Of a stretch of 64,000 nt of DNA, positions 26,101-52,054 are shown in pieces. Origin of the DNA: Achromobacter aloeverae (GTDB lineage: Bacteria > Pseudomonadota > Gammaproteobacteria > Burkholderiales > Burkholderiaceae_B); the NCBI RefSeq assembly GCF_004121055.1, contig NZ_PYAL01000001.1, forward strand, positions 558,001 to 622,000, in the 5' to 3' direction. The position numbers and the translations under genes are program-made. The stretch's first letter is position 1, and each line of letters starts with the position of its first letter. The notes beneath the pieces are model-generated. The model had not been told where the DNA came from. It made no database searches and saw only the letters and a program-made list of their open reading frames with translations.

Positions 26101-29100
26101 ACCGTCTGGCCCTCGCGCAGCGCCTGGATCTTGGCGTCGTTGGCCTGGTACGTCCACTGGCCGCTCTGGTCGATGGTCAGCACGCCATACTTGCCCTGGT
26201 TGCCGCCCACGATGGACCAGCTGTGCGTATCCAGCGTATCCACGTCGCTGACCTGCAACTGGCCGCTGACCGACGGCGCCTGGTCTTCGGTCAGCGCGCC
26301 CGTGGCGGTGCCGTAGATATGCGGCTGGTCGTTGGTGCCGACAATGGTGATGGTGACGTTGGTCGTCGTGCCGTCGGCGGTCTTCACCGCATAGGTCTCG
26401 ACCAGCTTCTGCCCCGCAGCCAGCGCCTGCACGTCCGCGTTGCTGTTGTTCAGTTGGAAGGCCCACAGCCCGGTGGTGCCGATGACGAACGTCCCGTGCG
26501 CGGTGACGATCTTCTCCGCCTGGAACGAGGACTGGCCCGCATCCGCATCGCGGATGTTCAGGTTGCCGGCCGTGTATTGCAGCAGGCCGCCGTCTTCCAC
26601 CACCAGGCCGGCGCCCGAACCCGTGATCACGGGCACGTCGTTGACGCCGGTCAGCGTGATGGTCACGACCTGCGTGTCCGTGCCGCCATGATGGTCATCG
26701 ACCAGGATGGTGAACGATTCCGTCACCTGCTGGCCTTCGGCCAGCGCCTGCACCGCCTTGGTGTCGACGTTGTAGGTCCACTTGCCGTCGGCGTCCACGC
26801 TGATGCTGCCGTACGCGCCCTTGTTGGTGCCCTGCACCGACCAGCTGTGCGTGTCGTTGACGTCCACGTCGGAGACCGTCAACTGGCCCGACACGGACGT
26901 GGCGACGTCCTCGGTCAGCGCGCCGGCATGATCGCCGCTGATGACCGGCAAGTCATTGGTGCCATTGATCGTTATCGTGATCGTGCTGGTGGCCGAACCG
27001 TCGGCACTGGTCACGGTGTAGGTCTGGACGATGCTCTCGCCCTGGCCCAGCCCCTGCACGGCCGCGTTGCCGTTGTTCACCAGGAACGAGTACGAGCCGT
27101 CCGGCAGGAAGACCAGCGTGCCGACTTCCTTGCCGTTGCTGGCCGTGGTGCTGTCGAAATGCGCGCCCGGGCGGAAGAAGCTCTGGGCAAAATCGACGTC
27201 GCTGATCGTCAGGTGCCCGGTGGTGCCCAGGTAGCCGTGATTGACGTTGGTGTCTTCCGTCACCGAGCTTGCGCCGCTGCTCAGGACCGGCACGTCATTG
27301 GTGCCGTGGATGGTGATGGTAATGGTGCTGACGGCCGTACCGTCGGCGCTGGTCACCGTGTACAGCTGGACGATGCTCTGGCCGGCGCCCAGCGCCTGCA
27401 CCACAGGGTTGCTGTTGTCCACCGTGAACGTGTAGCTGCCGTCGGTGTTGAAGTCGAGGTGTCCGATCTCCTTGCCGGCCGACCCGATGACGAACTTGGC
27501 GCCGTCCTTGAAGCTGTTCTGGCCCGCATCCACGTCGGTGATGGTCAACTGGCCCGTGGAGGTCAGATGGCCCGCCTGGTCGACATTGACGTCCTCGGTT
27601 ACGGAACCCTTGCCGGAGCTCAGCGTGGGCACGTCGTTGGTGCCGTTGATCGTGATGGTGATCGTGCTGGTGGCCGAGCCGTCCAGGCTGGTCACCGTAT
27701 AGGTCTGGACGATGGACTGGCCGGCGCCCAGCGACTGCACCGCCGGGTTCTTGTTGTCGACCGTGAACGTGTAGCTGCCGTCGGCATTGAACACCAGTTG
27801 GCCCAGCTCCACGCCGCCGTTGCCGGTGCTGCTGTCGAAATGCGCACCCGGCTGGAAGCTGCTCTGGCCCGCGTCCACATCGCTGATGGTCAGGTGGCCC
27901 GAGGTCGTCAGGTTGCCGCCATGGACGTTCTTGTCTTCGGTCACCGCTCCCGCGCCGCTGCTCAGCGTCGGAATATCGTTGGTGCCGTTGATCGTGATCT
28001 CGATGGTGCTGGTAGCCGTGCCATCCAGGCTGGTGACGGTGTAGGTCTGGACGATGGACTGGCCGGCGCCCAGCGACTGCACCGCGGGATTCGTATTATC
28101 GACCGTGAAGGTGTAGGAGCCGTCGGCATTGAACACCAGGGTGCCCAGTTCCGTCCCGCCATTGCCCGTGCTGCCGTCGAAGTGCGCGCCGGGCTGGAAG
28201 CTGCTCTGGCCCGCATCGGCGTCCGTGATGGTCAGCTGGCCGGACGTGGCCAGTTGACCTTCATGCACCTCGGCGTCCTCGGTCACCGCCGCCGTGCCGC
28301 TGCTCAGCACGGGAATGTCATTGGTGCCGTTGATGGTGATTTCGATGGTGCTGGTCGCCGAGCCGTCGGCGCTGGTCACCGTGTAGGTCTGGACGATGGT
28401 CTGGCCTTCGCCCAGCGCCTGCACCGCGGGATCGGCGTTGTTCACCGTGAAGGTGTACGTGCCATCGGCATTGAACACCAGCGTGCCCACTTCCGCGCCG
28501 CCATTGCCGGTGCTGCCGTCGAAGTGCGCGCCAGGCTGGAAGTTGCTCTGGCCCGCGTCGACATCGGTGATCGACAACTGGCCCGACGTCGTCAGCACGC
28601 CGTCATGGACCTCGGCATCCTCGGTCACGACGCCCTTGCCGCTGCTCAGTTCCGGCACGTCGTTGGTGCCGTTGATCGTGATGGTGATGGTGCTGGTGGC
28701 CGAGCCGTCCGCGCTGGTGACCGTGTAGGTCTGCACGATGCTCTGGCCTTCGCCCAACGACTGCACCGCGGGATTGTCGTTATCGACCGTGAAGCTGTAG
28801 GACCCGTCGGTGTTGAACACCAGCGTGCCCAGTTCCGTGCCGCCATTGCCCGTGCTGTGGTCGAAATGGGCTCCCGCCTGGAAGGTGCTCTGGCCCGCGT
28901 CGACGTCGGTGATGGTCAGCTGACCGGACGTGACCAGCTTGCCCTCGGCGACTTCGACGTCCTCGGTCACCGCATTGACGCCGCTGCTGAGCTCGGGAAT
29001 ATCGTTGGTGCCGGTGACGGTCACCGTCAGGGTAGCGGTCGACGTGCCGCCTTCGCCGTCGGAAACCGTGTAGGTGATCGACGTCGTCGCGGTCTGGCCC

Positions 29101-30488
29101 TCGGCCAGCGCGTCGAAGTCCTTGCCGGCATTGAAGGTGTACGAACCGTCGGCATTCAGGGTGAACGAGCCGCCATGGTCGCCGGCCAGGGCCTTGCCTA
29201 CGTTATCGGCCTGGCCGTTGACCTGGCTGACGGACAGCCTGTCGCCGTCCGGATCCGTGTCGGCGCCCTTGCCCTGCGCGTCGCCGGCGATGACGTTGCC
29301 GGACGCGCTGCCGCTTTGCAGCGTGGCGGCGCTATCGTCGGCCGCGGTGGGGGCCGGGTTGCTGACGTTCCAGGTGAAGGTCTGCGAGGACGTCGCGCCG
29401 CTCGTGTCGGTGGCGGTCACGACTACCTGGTACTGCCCATGGTCGCCGCCCTGGGAGGCCGAATGATCGATATTGCCGGAAATCACGCCCGTGTTGGGAT
29501 CGATGGTCAGTCCGGGCGGCAGGCCGGTGGCGCTATAGGTCAGCTTGTCGCCGTTGTCCACGTCGGCGAAATGGCTGGCGGTGTCCAGGCTGATGCCCTT
29601 CTCGGCGTCCGTGCCGGTCACGTTGCCAAAGGCGGTCGACGTCGGCGCGTCGTTCACGCCGTTGACGGTGACGGTCAGGGTCGCGGTCGACGTGGCGCCG
29701 AACGGATCGGTCACGGTATACGAAACCGACGACGTGGCGCTCTGGCCGGCGCCCAGCTGATGGAAGGCGTCGCCCGGGTTGAAGACGTAGCTGCCGTCGG
29801 GGAAGACGGTGAAGGTGCCGCCGTTGTTGCCGGCCACGGTGACGCCGCCGGTCACCATGTTGGAAGTGCCCACCGACACGATGGCCAGGGCGTCGCCGTT
29901 GGGATCGGTGTCGTTGGTCAGGATGTTGCCGCTGACGGTGGATTTCTCGGTGGTGACCTGGGTATCGTTGCCGGCGTTGGGGGAATCGTTTGCAGCGGTC
30001 GCCGCGCTGCCGGCATCCGCCAGGCCGATATTCAAGCCTTGTGCGGCGGGCACGCCGTAGGACAGGTCCAGCGGGCTGGTCGTTTCGACGATGCGGGCCA
30101 GGCGCACGAAGCTGCTGCCGCCGCCGTCACCGCCACCGGAGATCAGGGCCGCCGTCGGTTCGAGGTTGTCGAACGGATCCTGGCCGGAGTTCAGGGCAGC
30201 CAGCAGGCGGTCGGAATCGGTGCCTTGCGGCGGCGCCACGCTGGCTTCCTTGGCGTCAACCGGCTGGCCGGCCATGTCGGCATTGAACGAGACGTCGCGG
30301 TTCTCGCCGATCACCAGGGGCAATCCATCGTTGACCTGCAGGGCGACGGTGCCCCCCGTGGCGGTCACGATATCGCTATCGGCGGGCACGCGGCTGCCGA
30401 CATGCAGTTCGGTCAAGGAACCATCGCTATTGCGGATCCAAGCGCGTCCGGTGACTTGGGTGACGACTGCGGGTTGGGTATTGGCCAT
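20106..30488 (-). CDS. brtA: Giant type I secreted RTX adhesin (LapA/BrtA-type)
   Basis: A 3460-aa adhesin. Residues 1-135 form the retention module, containing TAAL at 112-115, whose Ala113-Ala114 pair sits where Pseudomonas LapA is cut by LapG, followed by a Gly-rich stretch. Residues about 165-2760 are tandem VCBS/cadherin-like repeats of roughly 95-115 residues (motifs NGTNDVP, [12 protein letters not shown], [11 protein letters not shown]). A von Willebrand A domain follows (about 2825-3010) with MIDAS motif DESKS and TDGDPN. Near the C-terminus are RTX calcium repeats (about 3285-3345, GGAGNDxxYGGxGNDTL) and a type I secretion signal region. The GGAG box upstream supports the start. It is exported by LapB-LapC-LapE of the same locus and tethered in the outer-membrane pore until LapG cuts it. 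Confidence 0.95.
30144..30155 (-). other. Predicted LapG cleavage site (TAAL) in the adhesin
   Basis: These codons encode Thr-Ala-Ala-Leu at residues 112-115, just before a Gly-rich linker. The position within the retention module matches the Pseudomonas fluorescens TAAG site near residue 108. The final Leu instead of Gly is a difference. Confidence 0.65.
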
Positions 30489-31262: not shown

Positions 31263-32684
31263 TTAACGTTCCGTGAATGCGTTGGACTTGGCGCGCAGGA
31301 TGGGCTTGAGCAGGTACTGCAGGACAGTGCGCTTGCCCGTCAGGATATGCACTTCGGCCACCATGCCGGGGATGATGGGCATGGTGCCGTTGCCCAGGCT
31401 GGATTTCTCCGTGCGCACGCGGATCACGTAGTAGGAATTGCCGCGTTCGTCCGTGATGGTATCGGCGCCGATGGTCTCCACCTGCCCTTCCAGCCCCCCA
31501 TAGATGGCGTAGTCATAGGCCGTGAACTTGACCTCGGCCTTTTGCTGGGCGTGCAGGAAGCCGATGTCGCGCGGATTGATGCGCACTTCCAGCAAAAGGG
31601 TGTCGTCCGTCGGCACGACTTCCAGGATGTCCTTGCCCGGCTGCACCACGCCGCCCACGGTGTTGTTCAACAGCGTCTTGACCGTGCCGCGCACGGGCGA
31701 CCGGATTTCCGACAGCTTGACCTTGTCGGCCAGCGCCAGTTGCCCTTCGCGCAGGGTCGCCAGCTTGGTATTGGTATCCGACAGATCACTGCGTGCCTGG
31801 TTGCGGATGTTCAACTCCGCCTCCTGGACCTTGCTTTGCGCCTCCTTGATCGAGGCCTGGATACGGTCGATCTGCGCTTCCGCCGCCTTGGCGTCGCCGC
31901 AGCTCTTGGTGACGTCGCGCTGCAGGCGCAGCAGGTCCACTTCCGACACGGCGCCGCTCTTGAGCAGGGGCTTGGTCACCGCCATTTCGCGCGAGGTCAG
32001 CGAGCAGGTCGTCGCCGCCTGGTCGCGCTTGGTCTCGGTTTCGCGCAATTCTTCCTGGCGCTGCTTGACCTGCTCCTTGGCGACGGCGACCGTGGCGTTC
32101 AGCTCGTTGGTGCGCTGGATCCAGGCGTTGCGTTCGCTTTCCGCGGCGGCGGGCAGCTTGGCCACCACCTCCGGCGGCGCCTGGAAGACCTCGCCGGTGG
32201 CCAGGGCGTGCAGACGCGCGGCCTTGGCCAGCAAGGACAGGTACTCGGCATTGTTCTCGCCCAGCGAAGAATTGAAGCGCGTCGGGTCGATACGCAACAG
32301 CACCTGGCCGGCCTCGACCTGCTGGCCAGGTTTCACCAGGATCTCCTTGACGCTGCCCCCGTCCAGGCTCTGCACCACCTGGACCTGGCGTGACGGCACC
32401 ACCTTGCCGTCGCCGCGCACCACTTCGTCGATGAAGCCGAAGTAGGCCCACGCCAGCAGGCCGGCCACCACCAGCAGGGACGTCCACAGCAGCACCCGCG
32501 CGCCGCGCGCCTCGGCCTGGTGGATGGCCCATTCGGCATTGCCGGCGTAGCCTGTGGTGACCTTGGGGTGCCCGCGCTCGCTGCCGTGGATCAACAGGTC
32601 GAACAGCCAGATGAAGGGCAGGAAAGGCAGGCGCAGCAGCGCCCCCAGGAAAGAGCGTTGCGGCTTGATGGCGTCGGTGTTCAT
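31263..32684 (-). CDS. lapC: Type I secretion periplasmic adaptor (HlyD/LapC family)
   Basis: A 473-aa membrane fusion protein. One transmembrane segment (about 65-88) follows a cytoplasmic N-terminal region; then a biotinyl-lipoyl half motif (VVQSLDGGSVKEILVKPGQ, in part GGSVKEILVKPGQ), long coiled-coil hairpins (about 140-320), the second lipoyl half (IRSPVRGTVK) and a C-terminal beta-barrel domain ending near KRTVLQYLLKPI. This is the usual order for HlyD/LapC. It bridges the LapB ATPase in the inner membrane to the LapE pore, and lies 2 bp from the lapB stop, so the two are surely co-translated. Confidence 0.94.
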   Translation of the reverse strand: MNTDAIKPQRSFLGALLRLPFLPFIWLFDLLIHGSERGHPKVTTGYAGNAEWAIHQAEARGARVLLWTSLLVVAGLLAWAYFGFIDEVVRGDGKVVPSRQVQVVQSLDGGSVKEILVKPGQQVEAGQVLLRIDPTRFNSSLGENNAEYLSLLAKAARLHALATGEVFQAPPEVVAKLPAAAESERNAWIQRTNELNATVAVAKEQVKQRQEELRETETKRDQAATTCSLTSREMAVTKPLLKSGAVSEVDLLRLQRDVTKSCGDAKAAEAQIDRIQASIKEAQSKVQEAELNIRNQARSDLSDTNTKLATLREGQLALADKVKLSEIRSPVRGTVKTLLNNTVGGVVQPGKDILEVVPTDDTLLLEVRINPRDIGFLHAQQKAEVKFTAYDYAIYGGLEGQVETIGADTITDERGNSYYVIRVRTEKSSLGNGTMPIIPGMVAEVHILTGKRTVLQYLLKPILRAKSNAFTER

Positions 32685-32686
32685 GT

Positions 32687-34867
32687 TCAGCTCCCCCGAC
32701 CCACGCGGCCCGCGCGCAAGGCCTCGACGACCTGGTCCTTGGGACCGTCGGCCACGATGCGGCCGTTGTCGATGACCAGCAGCCGGCCGACCAGGTCCAG
32801 CAGCGCCGTGCGGTGCGTCACCAGCAACAGCGTCTTGTTCGCGCTGGCGGAGGCCAATTGCGCGCGCAGCCGCGATTCGCTCTGGTGATCCATATTGCTG
32901 CTGGGTTCGTCCAGCAGCAGCACGGGGGGATCGTTGATCAGGGCCCGCGCCACCGCCACCGACTGGCGCTGGCCGCCGGACAACGACTCGCCGCGCTCGC
33001 CGATCAGCATATCGAAACCGTTGGGATGGACGTCGGCGAACTCATGCACGCCGGCGACCTGGGCGGCCGCCAGGATGCTGGCGTCGTCGGCGAAGGGAGC
33101 GCCCATCGCCAGGTTGTACTTGAGACTGCCGTAGAACAGCACCGGATCCTGCGGCACGTAGCCGACGGCCCGGCGCAGGTCCGCGGGGTCGATCTGGCGC
33201 ACGTCCACGCCATCGAGCAGGACGATGCCCTCCTGCGGCTGGTACAAGCCCAGTATCAGCTTCTCCAGCGTCGTCTTGCCCGAGCCGATGCGGCCGATGA
33301 CGCCGATGCGCTCCCCGGCCGCCAGCTTGAAGGAAACGTCGCGCAGCGCCGGTTGGGCGGCGCCCGGATAGGTGAAGGTGACGTTGCGGAATTCCAGCGT
33401 GCCCTTGAATACGGGGCGATGCAGGAACTCGGCCGACGCCGGCCGCTCCACCGGCAGCTGCATGTAGTTGTCGATGGAGCCCAGCGAGGTGCGTGCGTTC
33501 TGGTACTGCATCAGCAGCCCGGCCACCTGGCCCAGCGGCACCAGGCAGCGGCCGCTGATCATGGACGCGGCGATGATGCCGCCCATGGAGATGTCCGAGT
33601 CGTGCGCCAGGTATACGCCGATCACGACCACGGAGATCGAGACCAGCTGCTGCAAGGCGGAGACGAAGCCCACGGTGGTGGAGGAAATCAGCTTCAGCTT
33701 GCCACTGGCCTGGGCGATGAATTCGGTGGACCGCTCCCAGTTGCGCTGCATGGCGCCCTGGGCATTGAGCGTCTTGACGGTCTCGAAGCCGGACAACGCC
33801 TCGACCAGCGTCGCATTGCGCTGCGACGACGCCTGGTAGGTCGACATCGTCAGGGCTTCCATGCGTGCCTGCGCGGCCAGCGAGACCAGCAGGATCAGCA
33901 CGATCGCGACCAGCGGCGGCAGGATCATCCACGGCGAGATCCAGGACAGCACCAGCAGGAACAGCACGATGAACGGCAGGTCGACCAGCGTGGTGATGCT
34001 GGCCGAGGCGATGAAATCGCGCACCGATTCGAAGGATCGCAGGTTGGCCGCGAAGGAGCCGACCGACACCGGCTTGCCTTCCATGCGCAGGTCCAGTACC
34101 CGCTCCATGATCTGCGACGACAGCCGCACGTCCACCCGCTTGCTGGCGCTGTCGACGACGTGGGCCCGCGCGGTCGTCAGGACGGTGTTGAAAACCACCA
34201 CCAGCGAGATCCCCACCACCAGCACCCACAGCGTTTCGATGGCGTTGTTCGGCACCACGCGGTCGTACACGTTCATCGTGAACAAGGGCATGGCCATGGC
34301 GAACACGTTGATCAGCAGGGCCGCCAGCAGCGCATCGCGATACAGCCGCCGGTTCTCCAGTATCGCCGCCCAGAACCAGTGCTTGCTGCGCACCTTGCCG
34401 ACCTCGGGCGAGCGCGCATCGAAGCGGAACTGGGGCCGCACGAAACACGCCAGGCCGATGTAGTCCTGCGCCAGCTGCGCGGCATCGACTTCCACCGCGC
34501 CGGCGCCCAGCTCCGGATGGCTGATCAGGTACTTGCCGTCGCGTACCTCCAGCAACAGGCAAGCGCGATCGCCCCTGAGGAACAGGATGGCCGGCAGCAG
34601 ATCCGCCGGGATATCCCGCAGCGTCCGCTTCACCACGCGCGCCGACAGTTGCGCGCGGGCCGCGGCGCGCGGCAACAGGGCCGGCGTCAGGCGCTGGTCC
34701 ACCAGCGGCAGCCCGGCCGACAGCGCCTGCGCCGTCGACGGGACGCCATGCACACGGGTCAGCTCGACCAGGCAGTCCAGCAGGGGATCGTCGTGCGTAC
34801 TGCGGGGGTCGACACGCCAGGAAGCATCCAACGCGGGATCAAATAACTTGTCCGTCTTCATCGCCAA
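32687..34867 (-). CDS. lapB: Type I secretion ABC exporter ATPase (LapB family)
   Basis: A 726-aa ABC exporter. Residues about 20-150 form a C39-like domain, which in adhesin exporters binds substrate rather than cutting it; no Q-C-G catalytic motif is seen. Six transmembrane helices follow (about 165-450), then the nucleotide-binding domain (about 480-720) with Walker A GRIGSGKTT, signature LSGGQRQ and Walker B VLLLDEPSSNMD. It energises export of the giant adhesin. The start overlaps the 3' end of the small upstream gene by 29 bp. An in-frame ATG two codons downstream (MKTDKLF) is an alternative start. Confidence 0.94.
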   Translation of the reverse strand: MAMKTDKLFDPALDASWRVDPRSTHDDPLLDCLVELTRVHGVPSTAQALSAGLPLVDQRLTPALLPRAAARAQLSARVVKRTLRDIPADLLPAILFLRGDRACLLLEVRDGKYLISHPELGAGAVEVDAAQLAQDYIGLACFVRPQFRFDARSPEVGKVRSKHWFWAAILENRRLYRDALLAALLINVFAMAMPLFTMNVYDRVVPNNAIETLWVLVVGISLVVVFNTVLTTARAHVVDSASKRVDVRLSSQIMERVLDLRMEGKPVSVGSFAANLRSFESVRDFIASASITTLVDLPFIVLFLLVLSWISPWMILPPLVAIVLILLVSLAAQARMEALTMSTYQASSQRNATLVEALSGFETVKTLNAQGAMQRNWERSTEFIAQASGKLKLISSTTVGFVSALQQLVSISVVVIGVYLAHDSDISMGGIIAASMISGRCLVPLGQVAGLLMQYQNARTSLGSIDNYMQLPVERPASAEFLHRPVFKGTLEFRNVTFTYPGAAQPALRDVSFKLAAGERIGVIGRIGSGKTTLEKLILGLYQPQEGIVLLDGVDVRQIDPADLRRAVGYVPQDPVLFYGSLKYNLAMGAPFADDASILAAAQVAGVHEFADVHPNGFDMLIGERGESLSGGQRQSVAVARALINDPPVLLLDEPSSNMDHQSESRLRAQLASASANKTLLLVTHRTALLDLVGRLLVIDNGRIVADGPKDQVVEALRAGRVGRGS

Positions 34868-35057
34868 GCAAATCCAGATGTTCGGATAAGCGCGCCCGCT
34901 GCTGTTTGCGTCGCGTCAACTTCTGCTGCGCCTGGACCGGAAGATCCGTCAGGCGCAGCGTCCCGTTGGCAATCAGGACGTCGATAAGGTCTTCCAGGAC
35001 GCGGACAAAATCCGCGTCCAACCTCGAAAAATCATCCTCGCCGTCTTCGATCGCCAC
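34839..35057 (-). CDS. Small conserved protein of the lap locus
   Basis: A 72-aa acidic-then-basic protein. Its core, RVLEDLIDVLIANGTLRLTDLP followed by AQQKLTRRK (given here as RVLEDLIDVLIANGTLRLTD), resembles a small family often annotated misleadingly as 'tryptophan synthase subunit beta-like'. Those proteins share a leucine-rich helix, 'LRFTDLP' and a basic tail. It has no signal peptide or membrane segment, so it is cytoplasmic. It lies 6 bp after the lapE stop and its 3' end overlaps lapB by 29 bp, suggesting translational coupling. Its role in secretion or control is unknown. Confidence 0.75.
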   Translation of the reverse strand: MAIEDGEDDFSRLDADFVRVLEDLIDVLIANGTLRLTDLPVQAQQKLTRRKQQRARLSEHLDLLGDEDGQVI

Positions 35058-35063
35058 GATGGA

Positions 35064-36797
35064 TCACCACTTCCCGCCAGCCGGCGCGTCAGCCTTGGCC
35101 GGCACGAATTCCGGCGGCGTGCTGCCCTTGCCATACTCGACCTTGATCGGCTGCAGGCGCGCGTCGTCCGGCACCGTCGAATTGCAGGTCTTGATGATGT
35201 CGTCGGTCATGGCCAGCTTGCCGTTCTCTTCCGGCGTTTCGTCCTTGGCGGCCCGGATGCCCAGGGCCGGCAGCAGCTTGTGCGACAGCGCCAGCCACTT
35301 GAATTGCGCGGCTTGCAGGTCGTACAGCGCGTTGGTCAACGACCGGCGCGATTCGAACAATTCGTTTTCCGTATCCAGCAGGTCCAGCAGCGTGCGCTGG
35401 CCGATCTGGAATTGCTGGCGATAGGCGTCGCGCACCTTGGTGGTGGCCACTTCATGGTCGCGCAGGAAAGGCAGCGACTGGCGCAGGTGGTTGATGTTGT
35501 TCCAGGCCACGGCCAGGTCCTGCTGCACGTTGCGGCAGGTGTAGTCGCGCACGTCGCGCGCGGCGTAGCCCTGCTCCGCGGTCTGGCGCAGGCGGGCGGA
35601 GTCGCCGCCGCCGCGGTACAGGTTGTAGGACATCACGACCTGCACGTTGGAGCTGCGCACATTGCGGTAGTCGCTGCCCGGCTGCGAGGTGTCCGTGCCC
35701 GACGACGCGACAAACTCGAACTTGGGCGAGAACGCGCCCTTGGCCGACTGTTGGCCGGCCTGGGCCGCCTGCAACAGCGCCTGCTTGGACAGCACGCTGG
35801 GGTTGCTGCGCAGCGAATCATCGAAATTCGACGGTTTGGTGGGCAGCTTGTCTTCCACCTTGGGCGTAGCGGCCAGCGTCGTGGGCGCGCTCATGCCGGT
35901 CACGCGGCGAAAGCGCGACGTCACGTCGTTCAGGTTCGCGCTTTCCGTCATCAGGTTGGTCTGCGCCAGCGACAGGCGGCCACCGGCCTGCTCCATGTCC
36001 ACCCGGCGGCCCACGCCCGAGTCCGCGCGCTCGCGGATCTGCTTCAGCGTGTCCTCGTGCAGGCGGTAGTTGGTGCGGGCCAGCAGTTCCAGGTCGCGAT
36101 AGCGCTGCAGGTCGATATAGGCCTGCACGGCGTTCAGGGCCATGTCGTCGCTGGTGGCCAGCAGGTCATAGAAGCGGGACAGCTTTTCGAAGCCGGCCTG
36201 CTTGACGTCGCTGCTGGTCTTGAAGCCGTCGAACAGCAATTGGCGCAGTTCGACGTTGTAGCCGGGACGGTTCCAGTTCTGCGACGACTGGTCACCGGGC
36301 AAATGGTTCTGCCACTCGTGGCCGTAATAGCCTTGGGCATTGACCTGAGGCAGGAAGCCGGCGCGCGCCACGTTCTGGCCCTCAAGGCTGGCGCGGAAAT
36401 CGTGGTAGCGGGCCTGGATTTCAGGGTTGCTGAGCAGGGTCTGTTCGACGACCTGGTAGATCGTCGAACCGCCGCCGGGCGTGGCGTCCGATGCGGCGGC
36501 CACCGGGGGCTTGGCCGGCGCCGGTGCAGGCGCGGCTGTCCTCGCCGGGGTCGCGACGGGCGCGCTGGACTTGGCGGGCGCCGCGGCCGGGGTGGCGGTG
36601 GTGGCCGGCGCGGCTACAGGCGCGGCCGTGGGGGTCGATGTGGACGTGGGCGAAGTCGACTTGCCGAAGTTCTGCCAGGTTGCCGGCTTCGCGGCGCCGG
36701 GTTGACCGGACGGGATCGGTGCTTTCTGCGCGACGGCGGCGCCGGACAGCGCCAGGACCACGAGAGCCACCGAGGATTTCAGACGAAAAGGAGACAT
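35064..36797 (-). CDS. lapE: Type I secretion outer-membrane channel (TolC/LapE family)
   Basis: A 577-aa TolC-like protein. A signal peptide (about 1-24, cleavage after AAVAQ) is followed by an unusual Ala/Pro/Thr-rich linker (about 45-115) before the duplicated outer-membrane efflux domains (about 120-510), with the typical LDTENELFESRRSLTNALYDLQ (in part LLDTENELFESRRSL) near the second repeat. It forms the outer-membrane pore of the adhesin exporter and is where the retention module is thought to be held. I chose the ATG at 36797, which has an AGGGA box; a longer open frame to 36824 lacks one. It is the first gene of the lap operon. Confidence 0.92.
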   Translation of the reverse strand: MSPFRLKSSVALVVLALSGAAVAQKAPIPSGQPGAAKPATWQNFGKSTSPTSTSTPTAAPVAAPATTATPAAAPAKSSAPVATPARTAAPAPAPAKPPVAAASDATPGGGSTIYQVVEQTLLSNPEIQARYHDFRASLEGQNVARAGFLPQVNAQGYYGHEWQNHLPGDQSSQNWNRPGYNVELRQLLFDGFKTSSDVKQAGFEKLSRFYDLLATSDDMALNAVQAYIDLQRYRDLELLARTNYRLHEDTLKQIRERADSGVGRRVDMEQAGGRLSLAQTNLMTESANLNDVTSRFRRVTGMSAPTTLAATPKVEDKLPTKPSNFDDSLRSNPSVLSKQALLQAAQAGQQSAKGAFSPKFEFVASSGTDTSQPGSDYRNVRSSNVQVVMSYNLYRGGGDSARLRQTAEQGYAARDVRDYTCRNVQQDLAVAWNNINHLRQSLPFLRDHEVATTKVRDAYRQQFQIGQRTLLDLLDTENELFESRRSLTNALYDLQAAQFKWLALSHKLLPALGIRAAKDETPEENGKLAMTDDIIKTCNSTVPDDARLQPIKVEYGKGSTPPEFVPAKADAPAGGKW

Positions 36798-37573
36798 GAC
36801 ATTCCCTGAATAGCCAAAAAACAAAACGTGTCTTATGTAACGACTGAATTCCCCATGGCAACATCCAGACGATGGTCCTGACCGGATGAACCGGTAATTT
36901 TTGTTAGTCCATACGAACGACGGGAACCCGGGCGAGCAGTGGGGCGGGATTTTGCGACCAGAGAGGGGGACGCATCAACTGCGAAGAAACGCGTTTTATT
37001 GCGCTCTTTTTCTCCACATTTATGTATATGCCTGCTGCACTTTTTCTTTATGTGGAATGATTCTTGCGGTGGGCTGAATCGGAATTTTGCGCACTTCTGG
37101 CGACATTTGGGGCCTTCTTTCTTTTATTTGCACGAATTTTGTGAGTTATCGCACGGAAGTCAGATTTTTCCCTGAATAAATACACATTATTTCGTTCACA
37201 ATTACGTTCATTTACATTCATCGCCAATTGCAAAATATTCCTTAGTGCTGCTATCTGGTCGACTGTATGGCGCGGTTACCTATGGCGACCCGAATTGAAT
37301 CGCCATCCTCCTGGTGGATGAGCGTGTAACACTGCCCGACCGTTACAAATTAGTGACCTGGAAACACGGATGGCGTGACCTAATCCGCGAAATAAAACAC
37401 GGACGCCGCCACTACGTGCTCCCGAAAAACCACAGTGGCGTACCGGGGCTGGACCGCCGTGCACCCGCCGCGCCCCCGCCCCCTGGAGGCCCTCCGCAAC
37501 CTGCCTAAAATTAGTGTGCGTAAAAGCGGGACGGCTCAAGGATTTCTGGTATAGTTGCGGTCTTGCTTGATGT
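36798..37573. promoter_or_regulatory. Long AT-rich intergenic region upstream of the lap operon
   Basis: 776 bp lie between lapE and tRNA-Ala with no credible gene. About 37000-37260 is strikingly AT-rich compared with the rest of the window, fitting a promoter and a regulatory region for lap. A short inverted repeat with 7-bp arms (atggcga / tcgccat) lies at 37282-37306. A candidate tRNA promoter -10 box, TATAGT, is at 37550-37555. I cannot place the lap promoter with confidence. Confidence 0.5.
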
Positions 37574-46877: not shown

Positions 46878-47147
46878 ATGATGATCAGTATCGAGCCTGC
46901 CGATATAAAGGAAATAGTCGAATTCGCCCTGGACCGGGAGATCGGTGCGTTCTCCATGAGCGCCGACCTTTACGACGACTACGACTTGGACTCCCTCGGC
47001 TCGGTAGCCCTGGTCGTGGAAGTGGAAAAGCGCTACGACCTGCGCATTCCCGACGAACGCATGCCCGACGTGCGCACCGGCGAGCTGCTCAAGACGGAAA
47101 TAGAAAGATTGCTGGCCGAACGCGCATCCGGGGAGGCCCGGCAATGA
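46878..47147 (+). CDS. Acyl carrier protein
   Basis: An 89-aa acyl carrier protein with the four-helix pattern and the phosphopantetheine Ser39 in the DLDSLGS motif (canonical DSL). It is acidic, as usual. A second ATG at 46881 is equally possible. It is distinct from the housekeeping AcpP by its divergent helix III region (IPDERMPDVRTGELL) and its context: the stop overlaps the start of the dehydratase gene by 4 bp, the first of a chain of overlaps in this operon. It most likely carries the growing acyl chain for the downstream synthases and presents it to the acyltransferase and RpfF-like enzyme. Confidence 0.9.
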   Translation: MMISIEPADIKEIVEFALDREIGAFSMSADLYDDYDLDSLGSVALVVEVEKRYDLRIPDERMPDVRTGELLKTEIERLLAERASGEARQ

Positions 47148-47713
47148 CGGCGGATGGCGGCGACATCCGCTATCCGCAGCAAATGGACTATCACCAGATC
47201 CTGCGCCTGGTGCCCTACCGGTCGCCCTGGCTGCTGCTCGACCGCATGCTTGCCTGGCACGGCCACGGCATCACGGTGCAGAAATCCATATCCGGTGCGG
47301 ATCCCCTGATGGCGGCGCATCTCGCCGGTGGCCCGTCCATCATGCCCGGCGTCCTGTACATCGAACTGGTCGGCCAGGCCACCCTGCTGCACGGCGTGGT
47401 CAGCGGCAGCAGGACCGAGCGGGACGGCGCCGCCGTGCTCGGACGATGCAAGGGCGAGTTCCTCTCTCCCGCGTTCATCGGAGAAACCATCACCGCCGAG
47501 GTCACCGTCAACGAAAAGATCGCCGGAAAGACTGTATATGAAGGCGTGGTGCGGGCGGGTGACCGCCTGGTCTGCCGCGTTTCCGGAATGGGCGCGGTGA
47601 TCGATGCGCCCTCTTCCCTGTCCTCTCCCCTGTCCTCTCCCCTGTCCTCTTCACAGTCCCCGTCCCAATCCACTCCCCTCCCCCTCTCCCTGCCAGGCGG
47701 CCCAAGACCATGA
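47144..47713 (+). CDS. FabZ-like 3-hydroxyacyl-ACP dehydratase with Ser/Pro tail
   Basis: A 189-aa hotdog-fold protein. Residues about 15-150 align with FabZ: catalytic His59 in AAHLAGGPSIMPGVLYIELVGQ (in parts HLAGGPSIMPGV and IELVGQ) and Glu74, separated by 15 residues instead of the usual 14, i.e. one residue inserted in the loop. The core ends near GMGAVID. A tail of about 35 residues rich in Ser, Pro and Leu, encoded by 12-bp DNA repeats, follows and has no counterpart in FabZ. It should dehydrate 3-hydroxyacyl-ACP to the trans-2-enoyl form. The start overlaps the ACP stop and the stop overlaps the ketosynthase start, both by 4 bp. Confidence 0.85.
   Translation: MTADGGDIRYPQQMDYHQILRLVPYRSPWLLLDRMLAWHGHGITVQKSISGADPLMAAHLAGGPSIMPGVLYIELVGQATLLHGVVSGSRTERDGAAVLGRCKGEFLSPAFIGETITAEVTVNEKIAGKTVYEGVVRAGDRLVCRVSGMGAVIDAPSSLSSPLSSPLSSSQSPSQSTPLPLSLPGGPRP
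47616..47651 (+). repeat. 12-bp tandem repeat in the dehydratase tail
   Basis: Three copies of CCCTGTCCTCTC encode the repeated Ser-Ser-Pro-Leu of the tail. As the unit is a multiple of three, copy changes keep the frame. Confidence 0.75.
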
Positions 47714-48927
47714 TGACCTCCTATCCGCAATCCATCGCGGTCTCGCGGCAGTGCTGCGCCATCGCGAATATCGGAAGCTCCTGGGACGAATGCTGGAACC
47801 AGTTGCTGGCCGGACGGCGCGCATTCTCGCGTGGCGCCGACCTGATCGCCGGCTGGCCGGACAGCCCACCCCTGGCCGCAATCACCACGTTTCCGGGGCA
47901 GGCAGGCCCGCCACCGTATGCGCGACGCACGGACTGGCTCGCACGCCTCGTCGGCGAGCAGATGCGCGCGCCGGTCGACGACCTTGCGCACGCGCACCCC
48001 GCCGCCACGCTGTCCTTGATCGTGGCCACGTCCCATGGCAATCCGGGACCGCTGTCGGCCATCGCCGATGCCGAGCACGCGCGTGTCGACCGCTCCAAGA
48101 TAACGCAAGCGCTCTGGGAAGGCCTGGTCGTCGACAAGCTGGTAAGGGAAGTGAATGCCGGCCTGGGGCGCGAGTTGCCCGGCGTCACGATATCCGGCGC
48201 CTGCGCGTCGTCGCTGGTGGCGATATCCTATGCAGCCGACCGCATCGGCGCCGGCCTGTCCGACGCCGTCCTGGTGGTCGCCATCGACACGCTTTCCCGT
48301 GTAGCGTCGGTCGGCTTCGACAACATCGGTGCCATGTCGCGGCTGGGCTGCCGTCCTTACGACAAGCGGCGCGACGGCACCACGGTGGGCGAAGGCGCCG
48401 CCGCGGTGCTGATGGCCAGGCCCGAACTGCTGCCGCGGGAAGACCGGTGGGGCGCGGTTGCCGGCACCGCGGTCCATTGCGACGCCGGCCATATGGTCGA
48501 ACCGAGTCCGGCCGGGATGTCCAGGGTCATGCAAGGCGCCCTGCAACAGGCCCGCCTCCTGCCCGTGGACGTGCAAGGCGTCTTCTGGCATGGCACGGGA
48601 ACGCGCCAGAATGACAAGACCGAAGCCGAGGCCTCCCGCATGGTCTTTGGCGAGCGCTCCCCGCCATGCACCTCGACCAAGGGATCCCTGGGACACACGA
48701 TGGGCGCGTCCGGCATGTTCAATGTGCTTGCGGCATGCGAGGCGCTGAGCCGCGGGGTGCTCCCGCACATCGCGGGGACCGACGATCCCGAGTACGGGAA
48801 CCTCGACCTCGTGCTGCACCAGCCCCGGCCGGTCGCGTCCGGTCCCATGCTGGTCACCGCCCTGGGATTCGGCGGCATCAACGCAGCCGTCACCCTCCTG
48901 CCCCAGGAGACCTCGGCATGGGCATGA
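47710..48927 (+). CDS. Beta-ketoacyl-ACP synthase
   Basis: A 405-aa condensing enzyme of the KAS I/II type. The full catalytic triad is visible: Cys165 in ISGACASSLVAIS, His in WHGTGTRQNDKTEAE (about residue 296) and the Lys-His pair in STKGSLGHTMGASG (about 325-332). The end FGGINAAVTLLP is typical. It should elongate acyl-ACP with malonyl-ACP. It is divergent from housekeeping FabF/FabB, and its start (ATGATG) overlaps the dehydratase stop by 4 bp. The next gene encodes a second, Cys-less ketosynthase-like protein, suggesting the two form a heterodimer like ketosynthase and chain-length factor. Confidence 0.9.
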   Translation: MMTSYPQSIAVSRQCCAIANIGSSWDECWNQLLAGRRAFSRGADLIAGWPDSPPLAAITTFPGQAGPPPYARRTDWLARLVGEQMRAPVDDLAHAHPAATLSLIVATSHGNPGPLSAIADAEHARVDRSKITQALWEGLVVDKLVREVNAGLGRELPGVTISGACASSLVAISYAADRIGAGLSDAVLVVAIDTLSRVASVGFDNIGAMSRLGCRPYDKRRDGTTVGEGAAAVLMARPELLPREDRWGAVAGTAVHCDAGHMVEPSPAGMSRVMQGALQQARLLPVDVQGVFWHGTGTRQNDKTEAEASRMVFGERSPPCTSTKGSLGHTMGASGMFNVLAACEALSRGVLPHIAGTDDPEYGNLDLVLHQPRPVASGPMLVTALGFGGINAAVTLLPQETSAWA

Positions 48928-49901
48928 CGATACTTCGGGACGGCCCCTATCTCCGCGCAATCGGCTGGCTGTGCGGGCAAGATCACGCCGCGCGGGTCGC
49001 AACGACGCGGACATGGGACCAATTGGCCAACCCTGTCGACTTCACGGACGATGGCGGCTATCGCCTGCGGGCGGACACGGAGGCCGGTGTTCCAGCAAGC
49101 CCCTGCGCCGCCGTCATGCAGGGCAGCGGCGTCGCGCGCGCGCGCTCCGCGGCCAAGTCCACGGTATACGCGGCGTTGCTGGGCAGGCGGCTGTTGGACA
49201 CGGTCGCGCCGCGCGACGGCTATCACGGCGACCACGTAGGCGTCGCGGTCGCATCCGGCTCGACGATCACGCCCATCGCCTGGGACTTCGAAACAACGGG
49301 ATTGCGCAAGGGGTGGCGCAAGACCGACACCCTCCTGCTACCCAGCTCCATCCCCAGCGCCATCGCCACCCAGGTGTCGGCCGCGCTGGACACGCACGCG
49401 GCGGCGCTTGCCTTCCAGGACGGCGCCCTGGGCGTGTGCGCCGCGTTCGAATATGCGCATCTGGCATTCGCGCACCGGCGGGCGGACTATTTCCTGGTCA
49501 TGGGCGCGGACGAGGTCTCCCAAATCCAGGGCGATGCGCTTGCCGCCCTGGGGGATACGCGGCCCGTGCTCAATGGCGCCAGTGGCCTGGTCCTCGGCCG
49601 CACGCCCCATGGAGACCAGGATTGGCAGTTGCGCCTGTGCGCCCATGTGGACCGGAACGCAGGGGACGTAGGAGTCGCAGGGGACGTAGGCGCCATGCTG
49701 CCAGGCGACTGGCCGCTGGCCGTCTCGCGCGACATCGGCATCAAGGACAATCCGACGCTTTTTACCGCGCCGCTGCTTGCCTACGCGCTACACGACTTGC
49801 TGCGCCATGCGGGGCGCAAGGCGGTGCTGACCTGCCGCCTGCCCGGCAGGGGCGCCTACGTCCTGGGCTTTTCCCGGCGCAAGAGCAATGACGATGACTG
49901 A
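48918..49901 (+). CDS. Ketosynthase-like protein lacking the active-site Cys
   Basis: A 327-aa thiolase-fold protein. The nucleophile region aligns as AFQDGALGVCAAFEYA where an active ketosynthase has D-T-A-C-S-S, so Ala replaces Cys, and no HGTGT or KxxxGH motif is found later. The following LVMGADE strand and the GFSRR end fit a KS fold. It thus resembles chain-length factor or priming-type partners. An ATG at 48918 has AGGAG 8 bp upstream; a second at 48924 overlaps the ketosynthase stop (ATGA). It likely pairs with the preceding ketosynthase. The 3' end overlaps the acyltransferase gene by 14 bp. Confidence 0.75.
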   Translation: MGMTILRDGPYLRAIGWLCGQDHAARVATTRTWDQLANPVDFTDDGGYRLRADTEAGVPASPCAAVMQGSGVARARSAAKSTVYAALLGRRLLDTVAPRDGYHGDHVGVAVASGSTITPIAWDFETTGLRKGWRKTDTLLLPSSIPSAIATQVSAALDTHAAALAFQDGALGVCAAFEYAHLAFAHRRADYFLVMGADEVSQIQGDALAALGDTRPVLNGASGLVLGRTPHGDQDWQLRLCAHVDRNAGDVGVAGDVGAMLPGDWPLAVSRDIGIKDNPTLFTAPLLAYALHDLLRHAGRKAVLTCRLPGRGAYVLGFSRRKSNDDD

Positions 49902-51180
49902 CCCGTGCGTGCAAGCGGACGACAGGAAGCGGCTGTTCCCCGTCTGTTTCATGTTCCTCTGCTTCGGCAACCTGATCCTGAGCCTGGCCGCCACCTTGTT
50001 CATCCCGCCGGCGTCGGCGTACGCGCTCTGCACTGCCTTGTACGCCGCGCTGGTCGTCATCGAACTGCGCTGCGGCATCCGGTCCCCGATCTCCATTACG
50101 CTACTGCTCCTGTATGCCGGCCTGCTCGTCCTTGCGTTCAACGGCTACCCCGTCAGGGACTACGCCGGCGTCCTCATCTTCTCCTGGCTGACGCTGCTCA
50201 CCGGCGTGCTGCTGCTCCGGAAAAAGCCCTTCACGATCTTCTATTCGAAAGCCAGGGGCATGAAGCCGCTGCATTACACCGTCTCCACCTTGTGGTGCAC
50301 GGTCTACGCCTGCTGCCTGCTCTGCCACGCCTTGCGCTTTCCGCGCGCGTACTTCCTGGTGGTGCCGTACCTGCTGTGCATCGCCTGCGCCTTGTGCACG
50401 ATATTCCTGCACCTGTGCTGGTTCGGCCGACGCCATGCGTTGCAATCGTCCTTTGCCATCGGCGCCTACCGGTTTCGCCGCGTGCATGTCGATGCCGACG
50501 GTTTCGACCGGTTCTGCCGTTTCTACGCACGGCAAATCGTCCCCCCGGACGACAATCGGAAGGCCGACGACCTCGCCCGCGCCATCGCCGCCATGGAGCG
50601 GGAGCTGGGCCGGGACGCCTGCATCTTCATCGCGGAACGCGGGCAGGAAATCGTGGGCTGCATACGCTGCATCCTGGACCGGAAGCAGCGTCCCTTCCCG
50701 ATGGAAACGGACATGCGGCTTTGCTTCGCCCCCCTGCGCCGCAGCGGCCGGCTCCTGTACATAGGACGCCTGGCAGTGGATGCCGCCTACCGGGACCGGC
50801 CCGATGTGCTGAATGGCCTGTTCAAGTGCTTCGTGGACCTGGCGCTCAGCAGGGATATTTCCTTCGTGGTCGCCGAGGGGCTCGCCAGCCGGCTGCCCGC
50901 CTATCGGAAACTGGGCTTCGAACCCATGTTCGCCAGCACCGACCCACGTCATTCGATCAGGATGTCGCTGGGGTATGACTGCCACCCGATATACCTCAAT
51001 TTCGCCAGGCTGGTCTTTCTGCAAGGAAGCGCGGCGCCTGACAGGTATGGATTCGCCGGCTTCGTCAACCGCTACCTGGCCGAGCGCTGGTTCAAGCGCA
51101 AGGCATTGGCGAACATCCTCCGGCCGTCCGGCCGCTGGCCCTGGCGTTTCGACCTGAAGCAGATCCACGCGGCACGCTAA
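49888..51180 (+). CDS. Membrane protein fused to a GNAT/FeeM-like N-acyltransferase
   Basis: A 430-aa protein. Residues about 15-180 hold roughly six hydrophobic helices (for example TLLTGVLLL, ISITLLLLYAGLLVLAF). Residues about 195-395 form a GNAT-fold domain resembling N-acyl amino acid synthases (FeeM) and autoinducer synthases: a GQEIVGCIR strand, LYIGRLAVDAAYRDRPDV (acyl-donor-binding region), then AEGLASRLPAYRKLGFEPM, the typical 'xxxxLYxxLGF' end. In related enzymes the donor is acyl-ACP, which fits the ACP gene in this operon. The start overlaps the preceding gene; ATG at 49894 is an alternative. It probably transfers the acyl chain to an amine at the membrane; the acceptor is unknown. 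Confidence 0.7.
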   Translation: MTMTDPCVQADDRKRLFPVCFMFLCFGNLILSLAATLFIPPASAYALCTALYAALVVIELRCGIRSPISITLLLLYAGLLVLAFNGYPVRDYAGVLIFSWLTLLTGVLLLRKKPFTIFYSKARGMKPLHYTVSTLWCTVYACCLLCHALRFPRAYFLVVPYLLCIACALCTIFLHLCWFGRRHALQSSFAIGAYRFRRVHVDADGFDRFCRFYARQIVPPDDNRKADDLARAIAAMERELGRDACIFIAERGQEIVGCIRCILDRKQRPFPMETDMRLCFAPLRRSGRLLYIGRLAVDAAYRDRPDVLNGLFKCFVDLALSRDISFVVAEGLASRLPAYRKLGFEPMFASTDPRHSIRMSLGYDCHPIYLNFARLVFLQGSAAPDRYGFAGFVNRYLAERWFKRKALANILRPSGRWPWRFDLKQIHAAR

Positions 51181-51190
51181 GGACCCGACG

Positions 51191-52054
51191 ATGATGCATA
51201 CCCCGCCCCCGGGCCGCGCGGAAGTAGCGGGACCCACGGTTGAGTCGGAACGATATACGTTGGATTTCGATGAGCGCCATGGCGTGCTTTCCCTGAACTG
51301 GAAGCGGGGTTGCCCGCCCTATTTCAGTCCGGCCCTGCTCGCCGACATGACGCGCGAACTGTCGGTCATCGAATCGAGCGACGCCGACGGCCCCAGCCCG
51401 CTGCGTTATTTCGTCCTGCAATCCGGTCACGAGAACATCTTCAGCCTGGGCGGCGATCTGGCGTTCTTCCAGAGGATGATCCTGTCCAGGGACCGCCCGG
51501 GCCTGCTCGCCTACGCCACCCAGTGCGCCCACCTGATGCATGCATTGCACAGCGGCTTCCGCAATCGCGTAACCACCATCGCCCTGGTGCAGGGCAAGTG
51601 CATCGGCGGCGGCTTCGAAGCGGCCGTCGCGTGCGACTGCATCGTCGCGGAACGCCATGCCCGGTTCTGCTTCCCTGAAATCCAGCTGGGCATCTTTCCC
51701 GGCATGGGGGCGCTGCCCCTCCTCGCGCGACGCCTGGACAGGCGCGACTACGAGGAGATCTGCCATTCGGGCCACACCTTTACCGCCGACGACCTGGCGG
51801 ACAAGGGGCTGGTCGACATCGTCGCCGATACGGGACAAGGCAAGCGCGCGACCGACGCCTGGATACGCAAGCGCCACCACGCCTTCCAGGCGCACCGCGA
51901 AATCGCCGCCATGCGGCGCTCGGCCGCGGCCCTGACCCGGGCGGATTTCGAAACCTCGCTCACGCGCTGGGTGGACCTGGTCATGTCCCTGGACCAGCGG
52001 CGCCTGGCGATGTTGTCGCTGGCGATCCAGAAACAGCAGTCGGAATCGCGGTGA
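51191..52054 (+). CDS. rpfF: RpfF-like DSF synthase (crotonase family)
   Basis: A 287-aa crotonase most like RpfF, which makes cis-2-unsaturated fatty acid (DSF) signals from 3-hydroxyacyl-ACP. The diagnostic features are NIFSLGGDLAFF (RpfF: NLGGDLALF), ALVQGKCIGGGFEAA with Glu143, and FPEIQLGIFPGMGA with Glu163; the 20-residue spacing equals Glu141/Glu161 of Xanthomonas RpfF. The C-terminal helical part with WVDLVMSLDQRRL also matches. AAGGA precedes the start by 8 bp. It is 10 bp after the acyltransferase gene and ends the operon. No rpfC, rpfG or rpfR partner lies in the window. Confidence 0.8.
   Translation: MMHTPPPGRAEVAGPTVESERYTLDFDERHGVLSLNWKRGCPPYFSPALLADMTRELSVIESSDADGPSPLRYFVLQSGHENIFSLGGDLAFFQRMILSRDRPGLLAYATQCAHLMHALHSGFRNRVTTIALVQGKCIGGGFEAAVACDCIVAERHARFCFPEIQLGIFPGMGALPLLARRLDRRDYEEICHSGHTFTADDLADKGLVDIVADTGQGKRATDAWIRKRHHAFQAHREIAAMRRSAAALTRADFETSLTRWVDLVMSLDQRRLAMLSLAIQKQQSESR

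Follow-up and report, generated by a model that had tools for sequence, protein, structure and literature searches.

Aryl polyene (APE) lipids are built by an acyl carrier protein (ACP), a β-ketoacyl-ACP synthase (KS), ApeO, with a Cys-less partner, ApeC, that consists of one thiolase domain (PMC8358021) and is half the size of a KS, a ketoreductase and a 3-hydroxyacyl-ACP dehydratase (DH); RND and Lol-like proteins, including a LolA-like carrier, bring the product to the outer membrane (PMC8253772). The Gram-positive cyl product granadaene is a polyene made by ACP, KS, ketoreductase and DH, which an acyltransferase joins to ornithine and an ABC transporter exports (PMC6985545). The coronafacate (cfa1-4) and cispentacin (amcB, amcE, amcF, amcG) cassettes combine an ACP, a hot-dog DH, a KS and a KS partner; AmcG lacks the KS motifs and pairs with AmcF (PMC10698177). 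RpfF, the synthase of diffusible signal factor (DSF), acts as both dehydratase and thioesterase on 3-hydroxyacyl-ACP (PMC4542539). Here we analyse a six-gene operon of Achromobacter aloeverae located within a 64,000-nucleotide stretch of DNA (assembly GCF_004121055.1, contig NZ_PYAL01000001.1, positions 558,001 to 622,000; hereafter the window). It encodes an ACP, a FabZ/FabA-like DH, a KS, a Cys-less ketosynthase-like partner (KS2), a membrane protein fused to a FeeM-type GNAT domain and a crotonase of the RpfF superfamily. We show that it belongs, in a reduced form, to a rare, mobile and horizontally spread family of 12–13-gene clusters. Our favoured reading, to which we give even weight against all others together, is that the product of the family is an N-acyl (amide) lipid whose chain is unsaturated.

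The order ACP-DH-KS-KS2-GNAT recurs in all six distinct clusters that we found, namely the window, an Escherichia coli plasmid, two Herbaspirillum genomes, a Lysobacter bin and Brenneria salicis. Because the same order is kept in five further clusters, the grouping goes far beyond chance, and an isolated chance assembly of six genes is ruled out. The acyl supply looks dedicated, as the first-pass annotation had proposed, with ACP, DH, KS and KS2 present in every cluster. Five clusters, all but the window, additionally encode a TPR protein, an ABC ATPase, a LolCE-like permease, a LolA-like carrier and a putative outer-membrane barrel protein (377–410 residues, the barrel being called by eye). 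The LolA-like carriers pass the LolA_like cut-off; the permease has lolCE as its best match, at 96.5 bits below the cut-off of 362.45. The ketoreductase is intact in four clusters, truncated in one from Herbaspirillum (L006) and absent from the window. Three clusters (window, E. coli, Lysobacter) contain the crotonase and three (E. coli, both Herbaspirillum) a PfkB-type kinase, which in Brenneria is reduced to a 44-residue remnant between KS2 and GNAT (L009 4732-4908). No enoyl reductase was found in any of the six. The window copy lacks six or seven genes that its fuller counterparts carry; the six genes and their order, as first annotated, are real, and what had been taken for a self-contained unit is the stripped form of a larger cluster.

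Searches of the 64-kb window for the ketoreductase, PfkB kinase, permease, LolA-like carrier and barrel protein gave no match better than E 0.25; the TPR protein had no match at E 1, and the ATPase matched only genes of other ABC transporters. In the whole host genome (6.49 Mb in 13 contigs), the LolA search was empty and the barrel search returned one 79-residue match (E 0.006) with a stop inside; the searches for ketoreductase, permease, TPR protein and kinase cover the 64 kb.

The six open reading frames (ORFs) are intact and tightly packed (Table 1). Overlaps of 4 bp join ACP to DH, DH to KS and KS to KS2 (10 bp in the last case if the earlier ATG is used), KS2 and GNAT overlap by 14 bp (8 bp with a later ATG), and the crotonase gene follows after 10 bp, so that the head-to-tail arrangement described in the first-pass annotation is correct. 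The ACP may start at 46878 or at 46881; the latter would be a small correction of that annotation. Pfam gathering scores are passed for the ACP, the FabA-like DH, both KS halves, FeeM and ECH_1. The KS is complete, as had been stated, with the motifs GACASS, WHGTGT and LGHTMG; we take these, His59 and Glu74 of the DH, Ser38 of the ACP and Glu143 and Glu163 of the crotonase to be the catalytic positions. The best NCBIfam model of the DH is FabZ (51.8 bits, below the cut-off of 113).

Table 1. Positions of the operon genes in the window and of the PfkB-type kinase genes in related clusters.
Feature	Position	Strand	Support
Acyl carrier protein (ACP), 88-89 aa, Ser38 in DSL motif	46878..47147	+	PF00550 29.6 bits, cut-off 20.8
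FabZ/FabA-like 3-hydroxyacyl-ACP dehydratase (DH), 189 aa	47144..47713	+	PF07977 25.6 bits, cut-off 23
β-Ketoacyl-ACP synthase (KS), 405 aa, Cys and both His motifs	47710..48927	+	PF02801, PF00109
KS2, Cys-less ketosynthase-like partner (putative), 325 aa	48924..49901 (alternative start 48918)	+	profile comparison, alignment of 6
Membrane protein, ~6 hydrophobic segments, fused to FeeM-type GNAT domain, 430 aa	49888..51180	+	PF21926 43.6 bits, cut-off 27; hydropathy
RpfF-superfamily crotonase, 287 aa, Glu143 and Glu163	51191..52054	+	NF006452 242.8 bits, cut-off 177; tree
PfkB-type kinase genes	L003 10580-11425; L006 12122-13036; L007 12122-13039		

The window KS is 53–67% identical to its five relatives (41–62% for the ACP), and the six cluster KSs group together in the KS tree (100/100). 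It falls with FabF-like and type II enzymes: its best NCBIfam model is PRK09185 (191.7 bits), followed by PRK05952 and cispentacin AmcF, and PRK09185 also ranks first among KS models in three of the relatives. We presume that this model (NF006618) covers ApeO; the window KS stays below its cut-off of 407. Compared with solved structures, the KS profile matched best to 9s5h, 6KXD, several FabF enzymes and 6QSP, of which 6QSP is the ApeO-ApeC ketosynthase-chain-length-factor (KS-CLF) pair (PMC8358021) and 6KXD a KS-CLF complex (PMC10698177).

The KS2 family is marked by the motif TDT-x-LLPSSIPS. Pfam assigns a family to none of its six members, and its profile matched no PDB entry; two members gave weak FabF-type NCBIfam matches (best E 0.0052). 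Its profile detected nothing when compared with the partner KS (0.26% probability) or with single reference sequences, ApeC among them (≤4.9%). Against a profile of five reference KSs, it matched with 90% probability (E 1.6e-6) over 140 columns, in the N-terminal half only, and all 20 controls (six other families, 12 column shuffles and two reversals) remained at or below 1.9%. The match fell to 76% with ApeC added to the KS profile and to 64% with the six cluster KSs added. At the position of the FabF Cys, KS2 has Ala in four members and Ile in two. The first-pass assignment of a Cys-less ketosynthase partner is consistent with these data; KS2 resembles ApeC in being a half-size, Cys-less KS partner, homology to ApeC itself being below detection.

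We favour a scheme in which the ACP would carry the growing chain, while KS and KS2 would act as a KS-CLF-like pair that elongates it and sets its length. The 3-keto group would be reduced by the cluster-borne ketoreductase in the relatives and presumably by FabG in trans in the window, and the FabZ-like enzyme would then dehydrate. As no cluster has an enoyl reductase, the double bonds should stay, giving an unsaturated chain. The membrane-anchored GNAT may transfer this chain from the ACP to an amine. Both the window and the E. coli GNAT pass the FeeM (PF21926) cut-off, in agreement with the first annotation, and the ACP gene lies four genes upstream of the GNAT gene. Since the FeeM-type GNAT is the sole acyltransferase in all six clusters, an amide is the likeliest linkage. 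The RpfF-like enzyme could introduce a cis-2 double bond from 3-hydroxyacyl-ACP, or could hydrolyse acyl-ACP and release wrong chains, as RpfF biochemistry suggests. In the fuller clusters the LolCE-like ABC pump, the LolA-like carrier and the likely outer-membrane protein would take the lipid outward; the presence of this Lol-type set in five of six clusters argues for delivery to the outer membrane and suggests a cell-envelope lipid. Given that the 64-kb window is devoid of these export genes, the product of the window copy may stay inside, leave by another route or diffuse.

This scheme has parts in common with each of the known systems. With APE synthesis the clusters share the ACP, the KS with its Cys-less, N-half-only partner, the ketoreductase, the DH and the LolA-like carrier, but they differ in having a FeeM-type GNAT, a LolCE-like ABC pump, an RpfF-like crotonase and PfkB, whereas the aryl starter ligase, the RND pump and the glycosyl- and lysophospholipid acyltransferases of APE clusters were not seen; as far as the fetched DNA reaches, the genes mapped in the six clusters include none for activating an aryl starter. 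Granadaene synthesis (PMC6985545) follows the same logic of polyene synthesis, transfer to an amine and ABC export, but the clusters have a Gram-negative envelope route and a FeeM-type GNAT, and the aminomethyltransferase and glycosyltransferase of that system were not seen in them. FeeM N-acyl amino acid synthases share PF21926 and an ACP gene nearby; the cluster GNAT differs by its N-terminal membrane domain and perhaps by the dedicated elongation enzymes that adjoin it.

Several observations weigh against an amide lipid made by a KS-CLF-like pair. Of the solved structures, 9s5h lies closest to the KS profile, and the scores of FabF enzymes are in the same range. The putative ketosynthase-like fold of KS2 comes from profiles only, and the predicted amide step from one Pfam family, the GNAT family profile having no PDB match at E 1. 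For the putative outer-membrane protein, Pfam and NCBIfam gave no match and PDB none that is credible. No cluster of the family has an assigned product, and the window copy, having neither ketoreductase nor export genes, may do something else than the fuller clusters.

We found no description of this enzyme combination in the open-access literature, outside of which lie most subscription journals and all preprints; the first-pass statement that no characterized pathway has the combination agrees with this. We tentatively suggest, and hold it to be rather less probable than not, that the clusters, on plasmids and islands, specify an undescribed class of amide lipids of the envelope: a dedicated KS-KS2 synthase would build the chain and a cis-dehydratase of the RpfF family would fix the geometry of its double bonds, with the fold of DSF synthases serving in lipid assembly as a chain-editing module in place of signal synthesis. 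If true, a single mobile cluster would join type II KS-CLF polyene synthases, FeeM-type acyl-ACP N-acyltransferases and RpfF crotonases, which are usually studied apart, and would add dedicated Lol-type export; in E. coli from the human gut this cluster is carried by a mobilizable plasmid. RpfF-family proteins would also gain a function besides signal synthesis, a point of some consequence since DSF signalling is often inferred from the presence of an RpfF homologue. The presence or absence of the crotonase among the clusters makes its role directly testable.

The crotonase was examined in a tree of 14 proteins (Herbaspirillum hydratase L012 was left out). Reference rows were accepted as RpfF on the strength of what is encoded nearby: in Methylobacterium and Sphingomonas a protein annotated with an EAL domain, in Burkholderia arboris an RpfR-like GGDEF-EAL protein and in Lysobacter a hybrid kinase resembling RpfC, the last two recognized by eye. 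The tree separates ten RpfF-superfamily rows from four Herbaspirillum hydratases (100/100), which rules out an ordinary β-oxidation hydratase and bears out the RpfF-like label given at first pass. The three cluster crotonases, divergent members of the superfamily, form a branch of their own; the tree gives no firm order to the deeper RpfF branches. They score 220–247 bits on NF006452, above its cut-off of 177, compared with 342–412 bits for five of six comparison proteins and 262 for the Bosea protein. On the RpfF equivalog NF053515 (cut-off 550), the window protein reaches 155.2 bits; none of the nine scanned proteins passes, the highest (374.2) being a Lysobacter protein taken for canonical RpfF. 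The Lysobacter genome holds a cluster crotonase and a separate RpfF. Sequence L026 (MT836970.1), named 'Bacteriophage sp.', encodes an RpfF protein nearly equal to that of the Sphingomonas plasmid L022 and is probably bacterial DNA.

These data bear on the proposal of a DSF-type signal, in which the dedicated synthase would feed 3-hydroxyacyl-ACP to the RpfF-like enzyme, which would release a free cis-2-enoic acid, with the GNAT making a side product. Both Glu positions are kept as in RpfF, whose substrate is 3-hydroxyacyl-ACP (PMC4542539), and the proposal is most plausible for the window copy, which has kept the crotonase without the export genes. This crotonase is also the sole RpfF-like protein found in the host genome, the next match (E 2.4e-15) being in the ordinary range. 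Against this, the GNAT is common to all six clusters and the crotonase is missing from three; the genomes of both Herbaspirillum strains and of Brenneria showed no cluster-type crotonase elsewhere, and no remnant was seen at those three loci. Neither an RpfC nor an RpfR gene adjoins the operon, whose neighbours in the window are a LysR gene, an amidase gene and ABC transporter genes, the others likewise having no signal-receptor families. The host has many GGDEF-EAL proteins, but the first 102 residues of the RpfR-like protein from Burkholderia lie outside all 27 matches to it, which argues weakly against RpfR; no search aimed at RpfC was made. Unlike RpfF, the cluster crotonase lies inside a synthase cluster and, in the Lysobacter genome, coexists with another RpfF. 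Together with the separate branch, the equivalog score and the Lol-type export set in five clusters, these findings leave the DSF-type product suggested at first pass unsupported: a free DSF-type signal is possible, less likely than the amide lipid and, in our estimate, unlikely overall.

Returning to an acylated lipid as the product, the chain could instead go to an acceptor other than an amine (a hydroxyl, a glycolipid or a protein), with the GNAT as a modifying N-acyltransferase. APE clusters attach their polyene to an envelope lipid by means of other acyltransferases (PMC8253772), and the kinase of three clusters is unexplained by such an amide scheme. We regard this as improbable; of the acyltransferase-like genes, the GNAT alone occurs in all six clusters. 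The PfkB-type kinase has no place in the scheme proposed above; it could phosphorylate a sugar or a head group.

The cluster family is mobile and horizontally spread, as seen from a plasmid, a tRNA site, an insertion sequence and the low G+C content of the Herbaspirillum copies. When 72,556 plasmid records were searched by tblastn, GNAT and KS2 each turned up in two of them, from E. coli strains G8 and G6/7, whose plasmids are identical across the cluster; two of 5426 complete E. coli genomes have it. The plasmid (99,817 bp, mobilizable, IncK2/Z) is from the faeces of a healthy person. We take the G8 and G6/7 strains to belong to a probiotic mixture. In Brenneria a tRNA-Asp gene lies beside the cluster (L009 11111-11187), followed by dnaQ- and rnhA-like genes (read by eye), likely a genomic-island site. 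IS21-type transposase genes abut the truncated ketoreductase (L006 6387-9218), and the Herbaspirillum clusters have a lower G+C content than their flanks (47.9 vs 55.2 and 46.9 vs 64.3).

When the KS alignment was run against 84,980 species genomes, five loci emerged, the two of Herbaspirillum (L006, L007), the Lysobacter bin (L008), B. salicis (L009) and one of Halioglobus (L010). The last was rejected (27% identity, ORFs resembling an ordinary FabD-FabG-ACP-FabF set) and retained solely as a FabF reference. In the sets of related genomes the match was the query genome itself: one of 151 in the family set (searched with the GNAT), one of six in the genus set, at least one of 398 in the phylum set and at least one of 399 in the order set; in the order of Brenneria at least one of 394 genomes matched, Brenneria itself. 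The phylum and order searches scored at most five candidates per genome. Viral contigs contained no relative of KS2 or GNAT. A genome scan with the GNAT alone came back empty despite the relatives described here, so coverage by these scans is far from complete.

In the GNAT and KS2 trees E. coli pairs with Brenneria (100/100), and next to Lysobacter the window pairs with Herbaspirillum (89/89 for GNAT, 88/89 for KS2). The permease tree, which has no window row, shows an equal deep split (E. coli and Brenneria versus Lysobacter and Herbaspirillum), and in the crotonase tree the window and Lysobacter pair (98/97) with E. coli, a long-branched row, outside (95/99). This matching split fits an old cluster that may already have had the crotonase and later lost it in Brenneria and Herbaspirillum, repeated gains being another possibility; it would also fit a window lineage in which the genes for the reductase and for export were lost. 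One alternative is that these losses left the window copy a remnant with no dedicated product of its own. Six or seven missing genes and the occurrence in a single genome of the genus set speak for this, but the six ORFs are intact with their motifs and overlaps, the base composition is host-like (66.5% G+C in the operon vs 65.9%), and dN/dS between window and Lysobacter is 0.24–0.39 for the six genes, indicating purifying selection (0.03–0.10 between E. coli and Brenneria, for seven genes with unsaturated dS). A remnant seems quite improbable to us. A recent low-G+C import into the window genome was also considered and finds no support in the composition.

Least probable is a ring-forming cassette of coronafacate/cispentacin type, with ACP-DH-KS-KS2 corresponding to Cfa1-4 or AmcB-E-F-G and KS2 acting as a cyclization factor: the protein types are the same, in the listed order of the cfa genes, AmcG likewise lacks the motifs and pairs with its KS (PMC10698177), and the models for AmcB, AmcE and AmcF give low-scoring matches (27.3, 30.2 and 156.7 bits), but the cut-offs of 80, 140 and 325 are not reached, the DH is nearer FabZ (51.8) and the KS nearer PRK09185 (191.7), four of six clusters have an intact ketoreductase, and the AMP-forming loader (AmcH/Cfa5), present in almost all amcG clusters (PMC10698177), was not seen among the genes mapped in the six clusters studied here. 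KS2 gave no AmcG match in NCBIfam, a library that may hold no AmcG model.

The window DH has a C-terminal low-complexity tail rich in Ser, Pro and Leu that is absent from all five relatives in the alignment; it is encoded over a 12-bp tandem repeat array at 47610-47659. The amidase beside the operon has a second copy in the host genome. A comparison for an empty insertion site showed no syntenic one, the amidase search meeting only paralogues of 66–67% identity in three of the five other genus genomes. Elsewhere in the window, on the minus strand (20106-30488 and 31263-36824), a 3460-residue protein with cadherin, Big, VWA and RTX repeats lies beside HlyD-like, ABC and outer-membrane efflux genes and is likely a type I secreted giant surface protein. 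An autotransporter of 1678 residues with PATR repeats is encoded at 3876-8912, also on the minus strand.

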